Shown one piece after another: positions 29,299-53,964 of a stretch of DNA of 64,000 bases (within the stretch, counting starts at the first letter, position 1; the number at the start of each line of letters is the position of its first letter). Both the position numbers and the translations under genes were made by a program. The notes beneath the pieces were generated by a model that was not told the origin of the DNA, ran no database searches, and was given only the letters and a program-made list of their open reading frames with translations. Origin of the DNA: Zygotorulaspora mrakii (taxonomy: Eukaryota > Ascomycota > Saccharomycetes > Saccharomycetales > Saccharomycetaceae); contig NC_050721.1 in the NCBI RefSeq assembly GCF_013402915.1, forward strand, positions 1,054,001-1,118,000, written 5' to 3'.

Positions 29299-31061
29299 TC
29301 AGAAATCACCGTGTTTCCTATGTGTCTTTAAATGTTGCGACAGGTTATCGCTTCGACTAAATTTTTTATCACAAAACATGCATGCGAATGGTCTCTCTGT
29401 TGAATGAACCGATCTCACATGCCTCTTTAGATGTTCGCTTCTTCTAAAAGCCTTTGAACATTCCTTACATTTAAAGGGTTTTGCATCATTATCCGTACCA
29501 CTCATAGGGGTAATGGATCTACTTTTTGCCCTGCTTACACTTGAACTTGTGTTACCGCTTGCAGTATTGAAATCATTAGTGGCGTTACTGGACATATTAT
29601 TGGTATAGCTATTATGGATTGTCATTATATTTGGAGTGGATCTTCTTCTCCTCGATGAAGCTGTTGATGAGATAAGTGGGCTTGGAACTATCGTGTGATA
29701 GTGCGGTGGTGGAGATTTGCTCAATTTTAACGGCAGTTGATTATTCATTGAGAGGTCATATTTCCTCTTATCAATATGTGATATTGAATCAATTTTGTCT
29801 GTCCCTGTAGTAGCAACTTTTGCAGCAGCTGAAGCATTTTCAGAAAGCATCATTGATGGTATAATAAATTTTTGGTTCTTTGATTTATTTTTTGTTGACG
29901 AAGAGATTGATTTTGGTGATTTTGGCGAAGTAATTGGTCTTAAACTTGGCATCACTGGATCAAAATTCTTGAAACCAAATTCATCTTCTTCATCAGAAAG
30001 TACTGGGTTCTCCCATGATATAACTTTCAAATTTGATGACTGCGTACCATTCTTGTATAATTTTGAGAAAAGATCGTTGTTCAAAGAACCATCCAATACA
30101 GACATTGAGCTCCTTTGTTGCTTTTTGATACCATGTCTTTGAAAAGAATTTGGCTGATTGCAAGCGACATGTGGATCCCTCTTTGAGCATTGGGCAAAAT
30201 TCATATGCTAATCATTAAGTACCTGATTCAATTCAGTATCCATATCAAAATTGCTCTTAGTCTTGACACCTTCTTTGCCGCTGCTATCATTATTATTTCT
30301 ACCAACCTTTGGATCAACTAATGAACCGTTGATCGTGTTTCTTCTATCAGGTAGACTCCAAAAATCAATCTCATGAGAAATTGAGTTTCTATTGTTTGAA
30401 AATTCCGGTACAGGGTTCGTTACGACATCGCTGTGTCTTCTATCATGAACTGTATTGTTACTATGCATATGGGAAATCTTTTCATTAATACTGATATTAT
30501 CATTTATCAGTAAATCAGTGGACACGTACTCGTCTAGCAAAGAACTGATGTTATTGCCTCTAGCTTGGCCTCCGTAAATCTCGTCGGTATATGGTTGGGT
30601 AAAAGTGTCGACGAACAGATTCGATTTCAAAAGGTTTGGGTCTATAAACTGTGATGACGAGGACGACGTGTTCTGCAGGGGCGACGAAGAGTCTCTTTCC
30701 TTCCTGCTGTTTGTCATGATAAAGTCGTTCGACGAAGACAGATCCGAATTCGCGTTCGAATTGATATCGAATTGCTCCTGTATCGCGGATTGAGCGTCGA
30801 GCATCGCGATGAAATCGTTCATTGCAGTTGGCGTCGACAGCGTATGTGCATGTGAAAACTTTTCTCGCTTGAGCTTGAGATTGCTGCTGTTGTTGTTGTT
30901 GCTGCTGTTGTTATCGCTACTGTTGTTATCATTATTATCGCCGGCAGCGTTGTTACTATAATTACTGCTGTTACTGCTGGTGTAGTTTCTTGCCGCCGTG
31001 GACAGTGACAGTGGAACATTTGCTGTACCTGCTGTAGCATTGGTATAGAAGCTGTCCACGC

Positions 31062-31097
<36 letters not shown>

Positions 31098-31476
31098 CGT
31101 CGCCGTCGCAGCCGTACTTCGGCCGCGACGCTGGCGTGCTCAGCAGGTCCGCCGTCTCGAACGTGCTCTTGCCGAAGCAATTGAAATCCGGCGACGCCAG
31201 CCCGTTGCCGTTGTTCACCGGCGAGTTCGTCGCCGCCGTTGTGTTCAGCGTCGTGCACGCACTGCTCCTGGTCCCCGGCCTGTCGCGCCCGTTTCCCGCA
31301 CCGCTGTCCTGGATATTGAGCGACAGCGACTTGTCGCTGCCCTTGTACAACCCTGAGCTGTGCGCCATCGTCAGGGCGTCGTCGCCGTCGCCGTCTGTCT
31401 CCTCTATCTTCGACAGGTCCACGTCCAAGCTGCCGCCAAACACAGGCTCAACGTAGTCTAAGTAGCTGTCAACCAT
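29299..31476 (-). CDS. MSN2/MSN4: Msn2/Msn4-type stress transcription factor, interrupted by an in-frame TAG
   Basis: General stress activator that binds AGGGG elements. From ATG 31474-31476 the frame runs 422 codons to TAG (30208-30210), then continues in the same frame for 302 more codons to 29299; read through it would be about 725 residues (yeast Msn2 704). Before the stop: poly-Gln run, DDYV-like [14 protein letters not shown] activation motif, PKA-type site RRHS (Ser349) followed by RNSISH. After it: [22 protein letters not shown]-type RRRRST, and two C2H2 fingers ([34 protein letters not shown]) with terminal HRKHGDF. Yeast Msn2 has Tyr at the stop position. Synteny (CCS1 side YMR038C, YKL063C and MNR2 nearby) confirms identity. 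Either a nonsense allele, readthrough gene, or base error. Confidence 0.93.
30208..30210 (-). other. In-frame TAG splitting the MSN2/4 gene
   Basis: Codons around it read [16 protein letters not shown]. The S. cerevisiae Msn2 counterpart, from memory, is ELTQILNEYNMNF, so the stop replaces Tyr: one base (TAT/TAC to TAG). The next base is C and the following codon CAT, partly fitting leaky yeast context (CAR YYA). Confidence 0.9.
31064..31095 (-). repeat. CAG/CTG trinucleotide run encoding poly-Gln
   Basis: A run of nearly ten pure CTG units on the + strand encodes Gln in the MSN2/4 N-terminal region; pure triplet runs of this kind vary in length. Confidence 0.75.
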
Positions 31477-31877
31477 TCTGCTACCCACTGATGCTGTCTA
31501 TTATACGTACGGTGAAGCGAGCGGTAAATACTAGAAGACTGTAAAAAACAAACTGAAAACAAATTGAATTAAAATGAAATAAACGAAATAGATGAGCTAA
31601 AATGAACTAGAAAACGACGAAACGTCCAGACGAAATGAGGTCAAATCTATAAGATACGTGAGGCCAAGGCGTGTGCGAGAACTTGTGATAAAACCCACCT
31701 TGTATATTGCTTGTTTATATTCCAGCAACAGCTGCCTCCACCCACATAAACGAACTGCTGTGAATTCCTTTTCCCACAGTCTAAATTTCGCTATTTTGCC
31801 TTATCGTGTGAGACAATTTTCAATTGTTATCCAGAAACACAACAAAAGCCAGACGCAGAATCCTGCATGTGCGGGAC

Positions 31878-31910
31878 AGCGCATGTCATGCGGCACGGCC
31901 GACATGCGCT
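31878..31910. repeat. 10-bp inverted repeat in the GC-rich block
   Basis: AGCGCATGTC (31878-31887) and GACATGCGCT (31901-31910) are perfect reverse complements separated by 13 nt. Confidence 0.8.
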
Positions 31911-31921
31911 CTGGACAGGCC

Positions 31922-31958
31922 CGGACATTCCGGACATTCCGGACATACCGGGACATAC
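31922..31958. repeat. Tandem repeat of CGGACATWC
   Basis: Four adjacent units of 9-10 nt: CGGACATTC twice, CGGACATAC, CGGGACATAC. Confidence 0.8.
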
Positions 31959-32030
31959 CGAACGCAAACAACGACAAACAGCGACAAACTCGGAACCGTC
32001 TGCCCTGCGACAGGACACCACCGCAGCCGA

Positions 32031-32048
32031 CAGCCGGAACACCGGCTG
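32031..32048. repeat. 7-bp-arm hairpin in the GC-rich block
   Basis: CAGCCGG and CCGGCTG flank an AACA loop; a tight GC hairpin. Confidence 0.7.
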
Positions 32049-32369
32049 CGAATTGCGGGCGCCGTGCGCCGCGATACGCCTCGGCGTTTGCGTATGTCCC
32101 GCGCAAGTTGCTGCGTTGCTGCGTTCGGTGTGCTGTGCGGGCGGGTGAGTGCGCCATAAATGGCTTGCTTTGGATTGCCAGTTTGCTATTCTCTGGAGCA
32201 TTGGCATGCGCAACGGGGACAAAAGGTTGCGGCGCGGGCCACAGCGGGGCGCGCTGGTTGTCGTAGTGACGGGCCGCGTCTCAACGGGTGATAGACGGCG
32301 GCGCGAGAATGGCGGGCGCGGAGGGGCGGTGCGGTGCAAGGGTGCGGGTCGTGCGGTCGCGGCGGTCCC

Positions 32370-32407
32370 AGGGCTCCAGGGCTCCAGGGCTCCAGGGCTC
32401 CAGGGCT
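32370..32407. repeat. Tandem AGGGCTCC repeat
   Basis: Four perfect 8-nt units (32370-32401) plus a partial fifth. Confidence 0.85.
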
Positions 32408-32453
32408 TCTGGAAGCTTTGCGGGCGCGGATTTGAGCCGCGGCTTTCGATGTG

Positions 32454-32489
32454 CATCGCTGGACACGGCGCCTGCCGTGTCCAGCGATG
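32454..32489. repeat. Perfect hairpin with 16-bp arms
   Basis: CATCGCTGGACACGGC (32454-32469) and GCCGTGTCCAGCGATG (32474-32489) are exact reverse complements around a 4-nt loop GCCT. It lies about 160 bp upstream of the YKL063C-like start and is the longest uninterrupted stem I found in the window. Confidence 0.9.
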
Positions 32490-32650
32490 GGCCACGAGCA
32501 GATCAGGTTCCACGAGGTCACGTCGCACGTCGCACGCGATGGACGCCAGAAAACAGTTTTAAACGTCACAAGCGTCTGGTGAACGCGATGGTGTCCCCAG
32601 GACTATAGAAGACACCACGAGGGCCGTATTGTGCTGGAGCAGTGGACGTA

Positions 32651-33163
32651 ATGCAAGGTGGTATCAGGAGAAAGAAGGACTTGTTGCCCCGCTACAAGAG
32701 CTCGAATGGGAAATCGGTGCGTGGGGGCTCGAGGCTGCTGACGACGCCAATGAAAAAAGTGCTGGTGTACGTTTTGGCGCTCAGTCTGGTGTTTGCAATG
32801 ATCAGGATCGGCTTTTGGGGGTCCAACAAGGAACCCGAGTTGCGACTGGTCGAGAAGACCATTGCGGACAGTCTCAAACAGAGTTCCGATGCGGAGTACC
32901 CCGGTACGGGGAGCGCAGATGGAGCGGCGTTCCTGGATGGCGGTGCCAACGCCAATGCCAAGCTGGGTGGCAATGGCAATGGCAAGGGCGCCATCGAGGG
33001 GAGCGTCAAGGACAATGCGGAACCCAAGCGAAAAGTCCCCAAGGAACAATTCAACAACGAGGTTGCGAAACAACAAGAGGTCAAGAATTTGGAAAAAGAG
33101 TACAAACCGCCGGTACCCAAGAACCAGGTAAATAACGAAGTCAAAAATAAAATAGAGACATAA
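32651..33163 (+). CDS. Small single-pass Golgi-type membrane protein (YKL063C-like)
   Basis: 170 residues from ATG 32651 (a three-codon open extension lacks ATG). A single hydrophobic segment at about 37-54 (VLVYVLALSLVFAMIRIGFW) follows a basic N-terminus, the topology of a type II Golgi protein. The luminal part is low complexity with Asn-Gly/Ala-Asn repeats and Lys/Glu helices. Identification with S. cerevisiae YKL063C (uncharacterised, Golgi-localised) rests on length, topology and position: divergent from MSN4 and convergent toward MNR2 in both. The first two-thirds is GC-rich like the block upstream. Function unknown. Confidence 0.75.
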   Translation: MQGGIRRKKDLLPRYKSSNGKSVRGGSRLLTTPMKKVLVYVLALSLVFAMIRIGFWGSNKEPELRLVEKTIADSLKQSSDAEYPGTGSADGAAFLDGGANANAKLGGNGNGKGAIEGSVKDNAEPKRKVPKEQFNNEVAKQQEVKNLEKEYKPPVPKNQVNNEVKNKIET

Positions 33164-33202
33164 GTAATACTAGAGTGCAGCTCCTTTCTAATTCGACTCG
33201 AT

Positions 33203-50186: not shown

Positions 50187-51869
50187 TTACCACAATCCTC
50201 CCAGTAGCATGTCCTCCTCCTCCATATCGTCATATCTTTTTTGTAAAAGCTTCTTGTGCAACCTGATTCTGTCCTGCCGTAGGTCATATTTCTTTCTGTG
50301 AGTAATGAAGTAATCATATAACTCTTTCCTATTACCTTCGTTTATACTCCATTCTTTGATGAATTTTAAAGGCTTATGATAGTTACCTTTAAGAGCCATT
50401 GTTCTTATGCAAAGCTTTTGATATTTATTTAATAATCCTACCTCGTTAGGCACAAGCAAATGCTCAGGACTCAAATAAAACGATTGGAAGCAAGTTGAAA
50501 TAACATCGAGAGCAGTTTTTCCGTTTTTTGTTGACTTGAATAAGTCATACATTTGTAGTAAAATACCCTGGTCGTATGGAATACTTATATTTCTCCCTTG
50601 ATGCCATTGTTTCATAATGTTCCAACACGCGTAACTGATTTCACCTTTCTTATTCTCATTAGGATCTCCAATGCAAATGCTCAGTTGAATCAAGCGTCTC
50701 CAGAAGACATTATCTAGATGAGTATTGGGGAACTTGTTAACGAACTGATCTAAAATTTCCAATCCTTTAGCCATATTCCCATTTTGAATGCAATATGCGG
50801 ATAATGCAGCTATTAGTAATTCTGGCTTGGCAGTTTCGTCACTAACCGCTTCTGATGTCGGTACTAGCCATTTTTTCTTTAAAAATTTATCAATTAGTTG
50901 CATTTGACCCAAGTAACCTAAAGAATACACTATTGTGGCATCTAGGGAGCTTGAATATTTCCCTTGAGACGAGGTCTCGCCTAATAGAAATTCCATGATC
51001 TTCAACAAAGACTTTTCATCCAAAGGTTTATAGGAGTTTGAAAGATTACACGATACGCTATTATCACCTAGACGTTTGCGCTTGCTTATTCTAGTATTTG
51101 AAGCTTTCAGTCTTCGCTTCCAATACTTTGGCAGTGCGCCACATCTCAATTGCAAAAAGTGTCTTATCGTGCCCACATCTCTCTTTTCCAAAACAAACTC
51201 TAGGCCCTGTTTGTCCATTATGTATTGTAAGCATATCTGTGCTTTACCCAATTGTCCCTCATCGATAAATCGCTTGACAAATAAATTGATATCGTGCGTT
51301 TGCAGTGATGTTAGTCTTTCCTGTGTATCACCCACTATGGTCTTGCAATATACTTGGAAAAGAGTCATTAGTATTTCTGTATGCACAGCATCTGGAATGT
51401 CATTCGATAATTGCGCTTTCAAGTCTTTTTCTAAGAGAATTTTGTTGACGAAAGTTGCAAATTCGGACTTTGTGACCTCACCATTTTTCAACAATTCCCC
51501 AACATGCTCCTCTTTCAAAGAGTTCCCCCTAATAATTTCCATCAAAAAAGCTACATGTTGACCCCCCTTCAAATGTCGGTGAAATATATGTACCTTTCTC
51601 AGCTGATCGGTACCGGCGCACAATTGCGAGTCAATCTTCGCGAAAGGTATTGGGTTCGCCCTTTCTAGCGTATGCAACCTTCCTTGTAAACTTAACGTTT
51701 CTGAACCATGGTAACTCATTACTGCACCAGGTACATTTCTATCCAATGCGTATTCTTTAGCGCCTGATGAAATGTCAATATTTCCTACGGCAGTAGCCAA
51801 ATAGTCGACAGCAACCCTGCTATTGTATGCCTTCAAAATGCTGGGACCCAAGCAAACGCTCCTCAACAT
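50187..51869 (-). CDS. AEP2: Aep2, activator of mitochondrial ATP9 mRNA
   Basis: Mitochondrial protein needed for maturation/stability and translation of the ATP9 (Oli1) transcript. 560 residues from ATG 51867-51869 (yeast 580). N-terminus MLRSVCLGPSILKAYNSR is basic and free of acidic residues, a likely presequence. Rest is helical with weak pentatricopeptide-like repeats, and FLLGETSS and QFVNKFPNTHLDNVFWRRLI as distinct stretches. The frame is open 22 codons further upstream without ATG, also Arg-rich. YMR282C; faces RIT1 on the same strand, 197 bp away. Assigned partly by position because the family diverges fast. Confidence 0.85.
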   Translation of the reverse strand: MLRSVCLGPSILKAYNSRVAVDYLATAVGNIDISSGAKEYALDRNVPGAVMSYHGSETLSLQGRLHTLERANPIPFAKIDSQLCAGTDQLRKVHIFHRHLKGGQHVAFLMEIIRGNSLKEEHVGELLKNGEVTKSEFATFVNKILLEKDLKAQLSNDIPDAVHTEILMTLFQVYCKTIVGDTQERLTSLQTHDINLFVKRFIDEGQLGKAQICLQYIMDKQGLEFVLEKRDVGTIRHFLQLRCGALPKYWKRRLKASNTRISKRKRLGDNSVSCNLSNSYKPLDEKSLLKIMEFLLGETSSQGKYSSSLDATIVYSLGYLGQMQLIDKFLKKKWLVPTSEAVSDETAKPELLIAALSAYCIQNGNMAKGLEILDQFVNKFPNTHLDNVFWRRLIQLSICIGDPNENKKGEISYACWNIMKQWHQGRNISIPYDQGILLQMYDLFKSTKNGKTALDVISTCFQSFYLSPEHLLVPNEVGLLNKYQKLCIRTMALKGNYHKPLKFIKEWSINEGNRKELYDYFITHRKKYDLRQDRIRLHKKLLQKRYDDMEEEDMLLGGLW

Positions 51870-52066
51870 TTGTGCTAGCGCTCGGAAGCTAGGAAATCTC
51901 TGCGATCGAATTATGTACTGCAACTTGATTTTCACCTCGAATTTAACAGTTTAATATCAACTAGTCATTTTTCTATATATGCAATATATTGATTTTTTCA
52001 TATGAAGACCTTCAAACGTCATTAGTGATATCAAATTCAATATAACACTTTGAGCAACATTACCAG

Positions 52067-53515
52067 CTACATTAAATAGCTATTGACACTATTCAAGGTC
52101 GCTCTTGATGGATTTACGTTGCGGTCCTCGAGAAGTGTTATGAGCTTGGTGAGGTGCTTACGAATAATAATTTTGTTAACATTCGTAGGTGCTTGCAAAT
52201 ACCAATCGAGTTGGTAATTACTACAGAGAACAGAGAGCAGGACACCAATTGACATGTCTGTAGCGGAATTGCAGGACACTAAGATGGGTTTATCACGGCA
52301 CTTAAGACTTCTGATATGATTGGATATCAAAGAGGATATCTCAGGCAATTTTCCCCTTAGGTCCTTCGAGCTGCGTTTGCAACCACTTTGCAGCGGATAT
52401 ATTTTTATGATATCACTTGTCCTCTCGTTGACAACTGATAATGTAACATTTTTGCTCAAAATTATCACCAGTGAATATTCTTGGGCCAGCATCCGAACCA
52501 TTTCTGACTTTATATCAAGGCCGTCCACGACTCGGCCCAGTACTAATTCTCTTGTAATGTGGTTGATACATGGAAATGCATTTGAAAAGCTTGAGCTATC
52601 TATGTTCCTTTCCTTTTTAGAAACTAGTTGACGCACGAAAGTATGGAGGCTGTCATCTGATTTGGTCGGATCTCCCAAAAAATTTAAATTATCCCATAGC
52701 ATCTGGGATGTCAATCCACATGACCATAGTTCATGATCATCCGCAGCTCCCTGTACATACGTAAAACCATGCCTCTTATCCACCCCATCTTGAGCCTTAT
52801 AACTTACTGTGCATAATACAATAGGGATGATTCTTTCGTCTTCTGCAGTTTCCCATTTTTCTTGTACTATCCGGCCTGTGAATGGGTCTGTCGACGCTTG
52901 AAGTAACGGAGATCCTGGAAAGACCCAGAGGGGTCGCAGAAGGCGACCGTTAAATCGCTGGTACAATGTTTTTCCATCAATAACATCAATTCTCTTAAGC
53001 TTATCAACCAATTCAGGAATTCGCTTGCTAATTCTGTCACATTCAGACACCGTTAATATTCCAGGAGGTAAAAAAAGAACCTGTCTGTCGACCTTCTGAG
53101 GACTTGATTCCACCATGAGCGTATTCAACACAGCGCACCAAATGGGGACAGTTTTGCTGAGTGCATCAGGCATAGTCTTACCACGTCTTGTGCTGTCTAC
53201 AATTATGAGTCCGTTCTTTTCTTCGATCAGAGGCAGAATATGGAAATTTAACCTTCTGGTACTAAAATCCCACATGTTTACGTGTCCATCGGTACTTTTG
53301 AAATAAGAAGTCCTGGTAAAGTCGCTAGGATCACAATACCATAGTCCACATCTCTCATTCGGAACCAGGGGGAAATCTGGGAATCTGGGTATGACACTCT
53401 TTTTCAAAAACGCATTGTCCAGCAGTATACTTTGGATCCTATTTCTGAATGATTTGTATTCTTTCTTGAGATCTTTATTAACGTCACTCAACGATGAAAG
53501 TATACCTTCGTCCAT
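52067..53515 (-). CDS. RIT1: Rit1, initiator-tRNA 2'-O-ribosyl phosphate transferase
   Basis: Modifies A64 of initiator tRNA-Met with a phosphoribosyl group, which keeps it out of elongation. 482 residues (yeast 513). Family motifs: NERCGLWYCDP, FKSTDGHVNMWDFSTRRLNF, LIIVDSTRRGKTMPDALSKTVPIW (phosphotransfer region about 100-125), ILTVSECDRI, and the PTP-like C-terminal SCNSATDMSIGVLLSVLC. YMR283C in S. cerevisiae. Confidence 0.95.
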   Translation of the reverse strand: MDEGILSSLSDVNKDLKKEYKSFRNRIQSILLDNAFLKKSVIPRFPDFPLVPNERCGLWYCDPSDFTRTSYFKSTDGHVNMWDFSTRRLNFHILPLIEEKNGLIIVDSTRRGKTMPDALSKTVPIWCAVLNTLMVESSPQKVDRQVLFLPPGILTVSECDRISKRIPELVDKLKRIDVIDGKTLYQRFNGRLLRPLWVFPGSPLLQASTDPFTGRIVQEKWETAEDERIIPIVLCTVSYKAQDGVDKRHGFTYVQGAADDHELWSCGLTSQMLWDNLNFLGDPTKSDDSLHTFVRQLVSKKERNIDSSSFSNAFPCINHITRELVLGRVVDGLDIKSEMVRMLAQEYSLVIILSKNVTLSVVNERTSDIIKIYPLQSGCKRSSKDLRGKLPEISSLISNHIRSLKCRDKPILVSCNSATDMSIGVLLSVLCSNYQLDWYLQAPTNVNKIIIRKHLTKLITLLEDRNVNPSRATLNSVNSYLM

Positions 53516-53964
53516 CGGTTATACTCATAATGTGTATCTGTTAGCTGCAGCGTTATTCGATTTAGCTTGTACCTGTTGAACGGTCTAAATTTTTCAGCAC
53601 ATCGCCTGTGAAATGAAGAAGGCCAAATTGGCATTACCTGAAGAAAGAACAGCCCAACGTCATCGACAGTACTATTTGGATGATCGCGCATGGTACAAGC
53701 TGTTTCAATAGATATTGAAATCGAAAGATTGACAAGAGATACATTGAGACGACTCCAAAGTTAGACGAGACTCTAAAGTGCTGTTGAAAATTATACGTCG
53801 CAAAGAACCAACCTCTTACTAATCGTTTCAATTGGATGGATCGGTTAAATCGTTCTCAAGACTTTTTTCGGCCTACTGAGGACGCTCTTACGTATAGCTA
53901 TGTTACTTCAGAACAGGTCCTAAAATATGACAGAACAATGAATCTACTGAGAAATACGAAATAC

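Follow-up and report, generated by a model that had tools for sequence, protein, structure and literature searches.

The only Msn2/Msn4-type transcription factor gene found in the genome assembly of Zygotorulaspora mrakii is interrupted by a single in-frame TAG, and the question raised by this locus is what that stop codon represents: a recent loss of function, a leaky site through which the complete factor is still made, a division of the gene into two proteins, or an error in the sequence. The window analyzed here is a stretch of 64,000 nucleotides from contig NC_050721.1 of this yeast.

The interrupted gene and its copy number

On the minus strand, positions 31476 to 29299 form one frame of 726 steps (725 codons and the final stop) with one internal stop, so that translation of the window bears out the original prediction of a single frame broken by one TAG. 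The stop lies at 30210-30208, codon 423, and 16 protein letters were recorded for its two flanks. The features of the locus are as follows.

29299..31476, minus strand: Msn2/Msn4-type transcription factor gene, 725 codons plus final stop, with a single interruption
30208..31476, minus strand: upstream open reading frame (ORF) of 422 aa, with two conserved segments of 12 and 11 residues
30208..30210, minus strand: premature in-frame TAG, codon 423, in a conserved Tyr column (Tyr in 14 of 14 aligned relatives)
30205..30207, minus strand: codon 424, CAT (His), source of the C in UAG-C (Asn in the 11 closest relatives)
29299..30204, minus strand: downstream ORF of 301 aa, containing basic segments rich in Ser along with the two C2H2 fingers (ORF list, Pfam)
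29320..29475, minus strand: C2H2 zinc finger pair of Msn2/4 type, intact (Pfam; whole-genome matches at C3:1083320-1083388 and 1083404-1083475)

The 301-aa ORF begins at an in-frame ATG one codon past the TAG, and both zinc fingers detected by Pfam sit 3' of the stop, in this second part; a Pfam search with the upstream 422-aa ORF matched no family. The finger pair at the C-terminus is of the Msn2/4 sequence type, with 58 of 62 positions of the finger part identical to the nearest relative, P0001, and the alignment places Msn2/4 activation-region motifs (27 protein letters) upstream, the last of them being the one cut by the stop. The C2H2 pair together with these motifs confirms the assignment to MSN2/MSN4. 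Pfam matches among the neighboring genes comprise SBF-like, rhodanese, kinase, HMA, CorA, PC4, aldo/keto reductase and MFS families, which may correspond to RCH1, MIH1, CCS1, MNR2, SUB1 and ARA2, so that neighbors could be shared with the MSN2 and MSN4 regions of S. cerevisiae.

A search of the whole 10.45-Mb, nine-contig assembly found no second Msn2/4-type gene. The next best match scored 71.7 bits versus 663 and covered only residues 199-298 of 302, that is, the finger end; it lies in a gene (L021) encoding 459 aa, whose fingers are presumably COM2-like. With no other match reaching beyond the finger end, the expectation of a single copy holds: the search of the assembly revealed no Msn2/4 member besides this gene, which represents the single pre-duplication copy.

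Base composition changes along the locus. The region upstream of the gene (31477-33202) is very G+C-rich, reaching 62.5% at 32001-33000 versus about 40% around it, and the first 600 coding bases are also G+C-rich, with GC3 falling from 0.785 there to 0.311 after the stop. Two ORFs tested in the upstream region gave no Pfam match, and biased gene conversion at a recombination hotspot is one idea for the origin of this stretch. Scans for bacterial promoters and terminators, as well as a solved-structure search with the finger part, were uninformative on the stop. On the same contig, about 9 kb to the left of the window, two genes of the HO/WHO homing endonuclease type (C3 1039454-1042039 and 1042994-1045018, within L019, C3:1036000-1045900) encode 861 and 674 aa in opposite directions, on the downstream side of the one fructose-bisphosphate aldolase gene in the assembly (C3:1045942-1046964, minus strand). 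A WHO gene pair downstream of FBA1 has been reported for Zygotorulaspora mrakii (PMC7282813), and Torulaspora species also have such genes.

The stop codon in relatives and the sequence beyond it

Homologues were searched with a protein query in which the stop was read as Tyr. Among the best 120 of 348 homologues, intact proteins include P0001 (75% over the searched region, 653 aa), P0002 and P0003 (63%), two proteins of Torulaspora globosa (54 and 52%), and proteins of Zygosaccharomyces, Saccharomyces and Kluyveromyces. When the window is aligned with 14 relatives, the stop column holds Tyr in all 14, P0001 included, and a wider alignment of 16 relatives gives 15 Tyr and one Phe. The original prediction had placed the TAG on a conserved Tyr and had proposed comparing this codon among relatives; the first point is upheld by the comparison, in which none of the aligned relatives has a stop. 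These two alignments supply the unbiased counts, since a separate motif tally of the codon-424 neighborhood required Y or F at the column, making it blind to stops, and 54 of its 125 proteins, which lack the motif, are uncounted. The window's own products, P0016 (422 aa) and P0121 (301 aa), are each represented by a single member, on one contig of 1,318,115 bases; no second sequence with at least 90% identity over the query was listed in either of two protein searches, which considered proteins 0.55 to 1.75 times the query length.

The codon following the stop differs as well. It encodes Asn in 11 of the 11 closest relatives (among the best 120 of 348) and is CAT, encoding His, in the window; His at codon 424 also occurs in four other relatives (P0012-P0015), two of which are named Zygosaccharomyces. 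Most simply, the C after UAG would be new in the lineage of this yeast, and it may have come with the stop in a single step. The proposal that one base change explains the TAG is therefore correct as a minimum but incomplete, because the next codon has changed too, and two neighboring bases may have changed together.

Sequence decay was assessed by counting changes specific to the window and changes specific to P0001, with P0002 and P0003 as outgroups. After the stop (302 codons, 272 comparable columns), 14 changes are specific to the window versus 12 to P0001; before the stop (291 columns), the corresponding numbers are 31 and 14, and the ratios on the two sides do not differ (Fisher p 0.31). 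The window has altered 2 of the 101 post-stop columns that are invariant in all 14 relatives (I687V and K720R), and a like count for P0001, based on columns invariant in the other 13 relatives, gives five changes. If the post-stop part had evolved freely, two changes would correspond to at most 0.028 neutral substitutions per site (95%), whereas the absence of further stops yields a looser age bound of 0.068 substitutions per site. These counts agree with the earlier statement that decay has not set in. With so few post-stop changes, either the stop would be young on the time scale of the divergence from P0001, or translation would still reach the downstream part, two cases that sequence alone cannot separate.

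Interrupted genes elsewhere in the genome

The frequency of similar stops was estimated from 20 stretches of 10 kb taken at 100-kb steps, 18 on C1 and two on C2, chosen by position alone and holding 107 non-overlapping ORFs of at least 100 aa; with the window, 264 kb were scanned. Genes were retained if one stop was flanked on either side by 60 or more codons of same-frame coding signal, a criterion blind to stops close to gene ends and to genes in advanced decay, and one that left the part of a permease pseudogene in L040 unflagged. The interrupted frame is no product of chance alone: two genes with a clean single stop were obtained, the Msn2/4-type gene and a PRD1-like gene of the thimet oligopeptidase family (L022:1686-3896, C1 about 51686-53896; stop at L022:3336). 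Four other long same-frame pairs (one in L027 and three at 32.1-32.6 kb, in the G+C-rich stretch) were dropped once the scan demanded coding score in the correct frame.

In the PRD1-like gene, a single TAA replaces the conserved Glu of the motif DFVEAPSQM, and the 186 open codons past it can be aligned to solved relatives. This Glu is presumably a zinc ligand, and yeast UAA readthrough is not known to insert Glu, so the stop looks like plain loss, which readthrough is not expected to mend. By contrast with these clean single-stop genes, an amino-acid permease locus (C2:59657-61043) has seven stops in three matched pieces, the picture of an old pseudogene.

Genome-wide family scans, which see only the domain, indicate that internal stops are rare. 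Stops occurred in 3 of 20 permease matches, all three belonging to the locus just described, and in 1 of 97 kinase matches, that one being an intron: the kinase at C5:521858-522544, tried as a third broken gene, was rejected because its apparent TAG, in a presumably MEK1-like gene (L043, C5:520900-523400), serves as the 3' acceptor of an intron of 81 bases, which has GTATGT and TACTAAC and whose flanks join in frame. No internal stop was found among the sugar transporters (9 matches; 57 candidates, 9 of them scored), the MFS proteins (10 matches; 96 candidates, 8 of them scored), the GTPases (13 matches) or the zinc fingers (39 matches). Among the 26 matches to the query protein, one is interrupted by a TGA; it belongs to a zinc finger gene (L007, C1:691187-691366), which we take to be CMR3-like, with the in-frame TGA directly before its fingers. 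This gene is either broken or spliced and was left uncounted. Altogether, fresh nonsense alleles occur in this genome at a low rate, an estimate resting mainly on one other gene.

Explanations of the stop and their consequences

An intron enclosing the stop was rejected, as the gene has no GTATGT and no TACTAAC (one GTACGT lies 319 bases upstream) and the flanks align without extra residues. Nor is there any sign of a changed genetic code through altered eRF1: eRF1 reads TASNIKS and YLCDNKF, which we take to be its characteristic motifs, and looks normal, and TAG ends 17 of the 82 ORFs of at least 300 aa in the 264 kb, this stop included. Two pattern searches for a CUA suppressor tRNA, covering common T-arm forms only, gave no clear candidate; their 9 and 72 matches (2 and 97 with reversed-pattern controls) were read by eye, none being folded, and are presumably known tRNAs of other anticodon or chance-like.

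Probably the sequenced strain carries, in its only MSN2/MSN4 gene, a nonsense allele of recent origin that causes loss of function; the allele, known from one assembly, would be either fixed or heterozygous. Among the options offered by the original prediction, this one is best supported, because another nonsense gene free of decay exists in the genome, the stop is absent from all aligned relatives, and comparable alleles are documented in S. cerevisiae. The codon for Tyr423 would have become TAG, perhaps in one event with the neighboring base (ancestral T or C followed by A, replaced by G-C). Most ribosomes would then terminate at the TAG and release a 422-aa protein that keeps the activation segments and lacks both zinc fingers; the nuclear-localization region of an Msn2/4-type protein presumably falls in the lost part as well. 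Such a fragment should not bind stress-response elements. Since it lacks the DNA-binding domain, Msn2/4 output would be lost or strongly reduced, with the full protein largely gone and the stress program probably weakened. A premature stop this far from the end of a gene would in addition leave the mRNA open to decay. Low readthrough at UAG-C could leave a leaky rather than a null allele, and a trace of full-length protein made in this way is plausible in this strain. Two points weigh against a nonsense allele: the change to C at position +4 is less in keeping with a random nonsense mutation than with a leaky stop, and the genome-wide family scans turned up few broken genes.

Precedents exist in S. 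cerevisiae, for whose Msn2 a 9aaTAD has been located inside the transactivation domain (PMC5019370). Nonsense alleles were reported in two strains, 22 in one and 4 in the other, with Q236TAA of MSN4 among them, and this is the only stop inside MSN2 or MSN4 described in the available portions of the literature on Msn2, readthrough and stop codons (PMC3240633). As in the present gene, the MSN4 allele of the [PSI+] strain 74-D694 places one nonsense codon in an otherwise normal member of the Msn2/4 family and cuts off the C-terminal part with the zinc fingers; however, 74-D694 keeps the paralogue MSN2, whereas only one gene was found here, and its stop is a TAA at Gln with strain variation shown, as opposed to TAG-C at Tyr in one sequence (PMC3240633). 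Sake yeasts carry deleterious MSN2/MSN4 alleles (PMC6664092), and these yeasts tolerate the loss, which is associated with faster initial fermentation (PMC4202335, PMC6664092). The likeness lies in a natural, tolerated dysfunction of the same stress factor, accompanied in sake yeast by a higher initial rate of ethanol fermentation, and the difference in that sake yeasts are domesticated and belong to a post-duplication species (PMC6664092, PMC4202335).

Readthrough was the other biological option of the original prediction, and it fares less well, as its UAG-C context, on which that prediction only touched, is real and lineage-specific whereas no relative has the stop and the downstream RNA folds no better than shuffled sequence. 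A functional leaky stop, at which a near-cognate tRNA-Tyr reads UAG-C and restores Tyr, would yield much truncated and little full-length factor and make stress output depend on termination efficiency; this is rather unlikely. Among the UAG tetranucleotides, only UAG-C responds to extra yeast tRNA-Tyr with increased readthrough (8-fold), and a C after the stop adds about 2-fold through weaker decoding by eRF1 (PMC6614816), while overexpression of tRNA-Gln also raises readthrough at UAG-C, 13-fold (PMC6614816). In this system, YARIS, the tetranucleotide is the one found here, where the tRNA would restore the ancestral residue, but the evidence there comes from a reporter in S. cerevisiae cells overexpressing the tRNA, and here from the sequence of another gene in another species (PMC6614816). 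A premature UAG in the conserved zebrafish gene csad (sa9430) was likewise reported to be read through to normal protein (PMC5484112), although that case concerns a mutant strain with protein evidence and a stop 20 residues before the natural end, whereas 302 codons follow the present stop, which is known as sequence only (PMC5484112).

Within the window's own sequence, the lineage-specific C after UAG and the undecayed downstream part would suit a leaky stop, but the lack of decay is equally explained by youth. The absence of the stop from all aligned relatives means that there is no conserved readthrough signature, so programmed readthrough of a conserved kind is not supported. The strong yeast readthrough motif is not matched by the remaining hexamer, CATATG, and no stimulatory 3' RNA structure was found in the 103 nt from the stop, where folding is unremarkable (z 0.79; 155 of the 200 shuffled sequences reach a fold as good or better). 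Nor is the tetranucleotide reserved for leaky sites, since TAG-C ends 4 of the 82 ORFs of at least 300 aa in the 264 kb, three besides this one. The arrival of UAG-C together with the stop is suggestive, yet it would be one event in one genome. It is quite improbable that the single Msn2/4 factor is under termination control, with tRNA-Tyr reading UAG-C to provide a small, condition-dependent amount of wild-type protein whose output follows eRF1/eRF3, and with an abundant 422-aa form that would carry the activation segments without the DNA-binding domain.

A sequence or assembly error, or the choice by the assembler of one allele of a heterozygous strain, is very unlikely to account for the stop. 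Only one assembly of the sequence was found, with P0016 and P0121 each having one member on one contig, which leaves room for this explanation; typical PacBio consensus errors, however, are indels, and here two adjacent bases differ from expectation. This double change, together with an assembly built from PacBio and Illumina data (PMC7282813), makes an error less likely. A highly improbable alternative is that the gene has been split in two, giving an activator fragment of 422 aa and an independently translated DNA-binding protein of 301 aa, the latter produced by reinitiation or from an internal transcript and acting as a competitor at stress-response elements. The in-frame ATG one codon past the stop, which opens 301 aa with both fingers, and the continued conservation of the fingers would be in keeping with such a split. 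That Met is ancestral, though, as 10 of the 11 closest relatives have YNM and the remaining one YNL; the start context has C at -3, which is poor in yeast, and reinitiation after an ORF of 422 codons is inefficient.

If the stop were leaky, the gene would offer a natural test of a transcription factor set by termination efficiency, in which the original amino acid is restored through a known tRNA rule. If the stop is instead a nonsense allele, as is probable, the reference genome of Zygotorulaspora mrakii carries a broken stress regulator, which would matter for the use of this strain as a wild type and for counts of lost genes.
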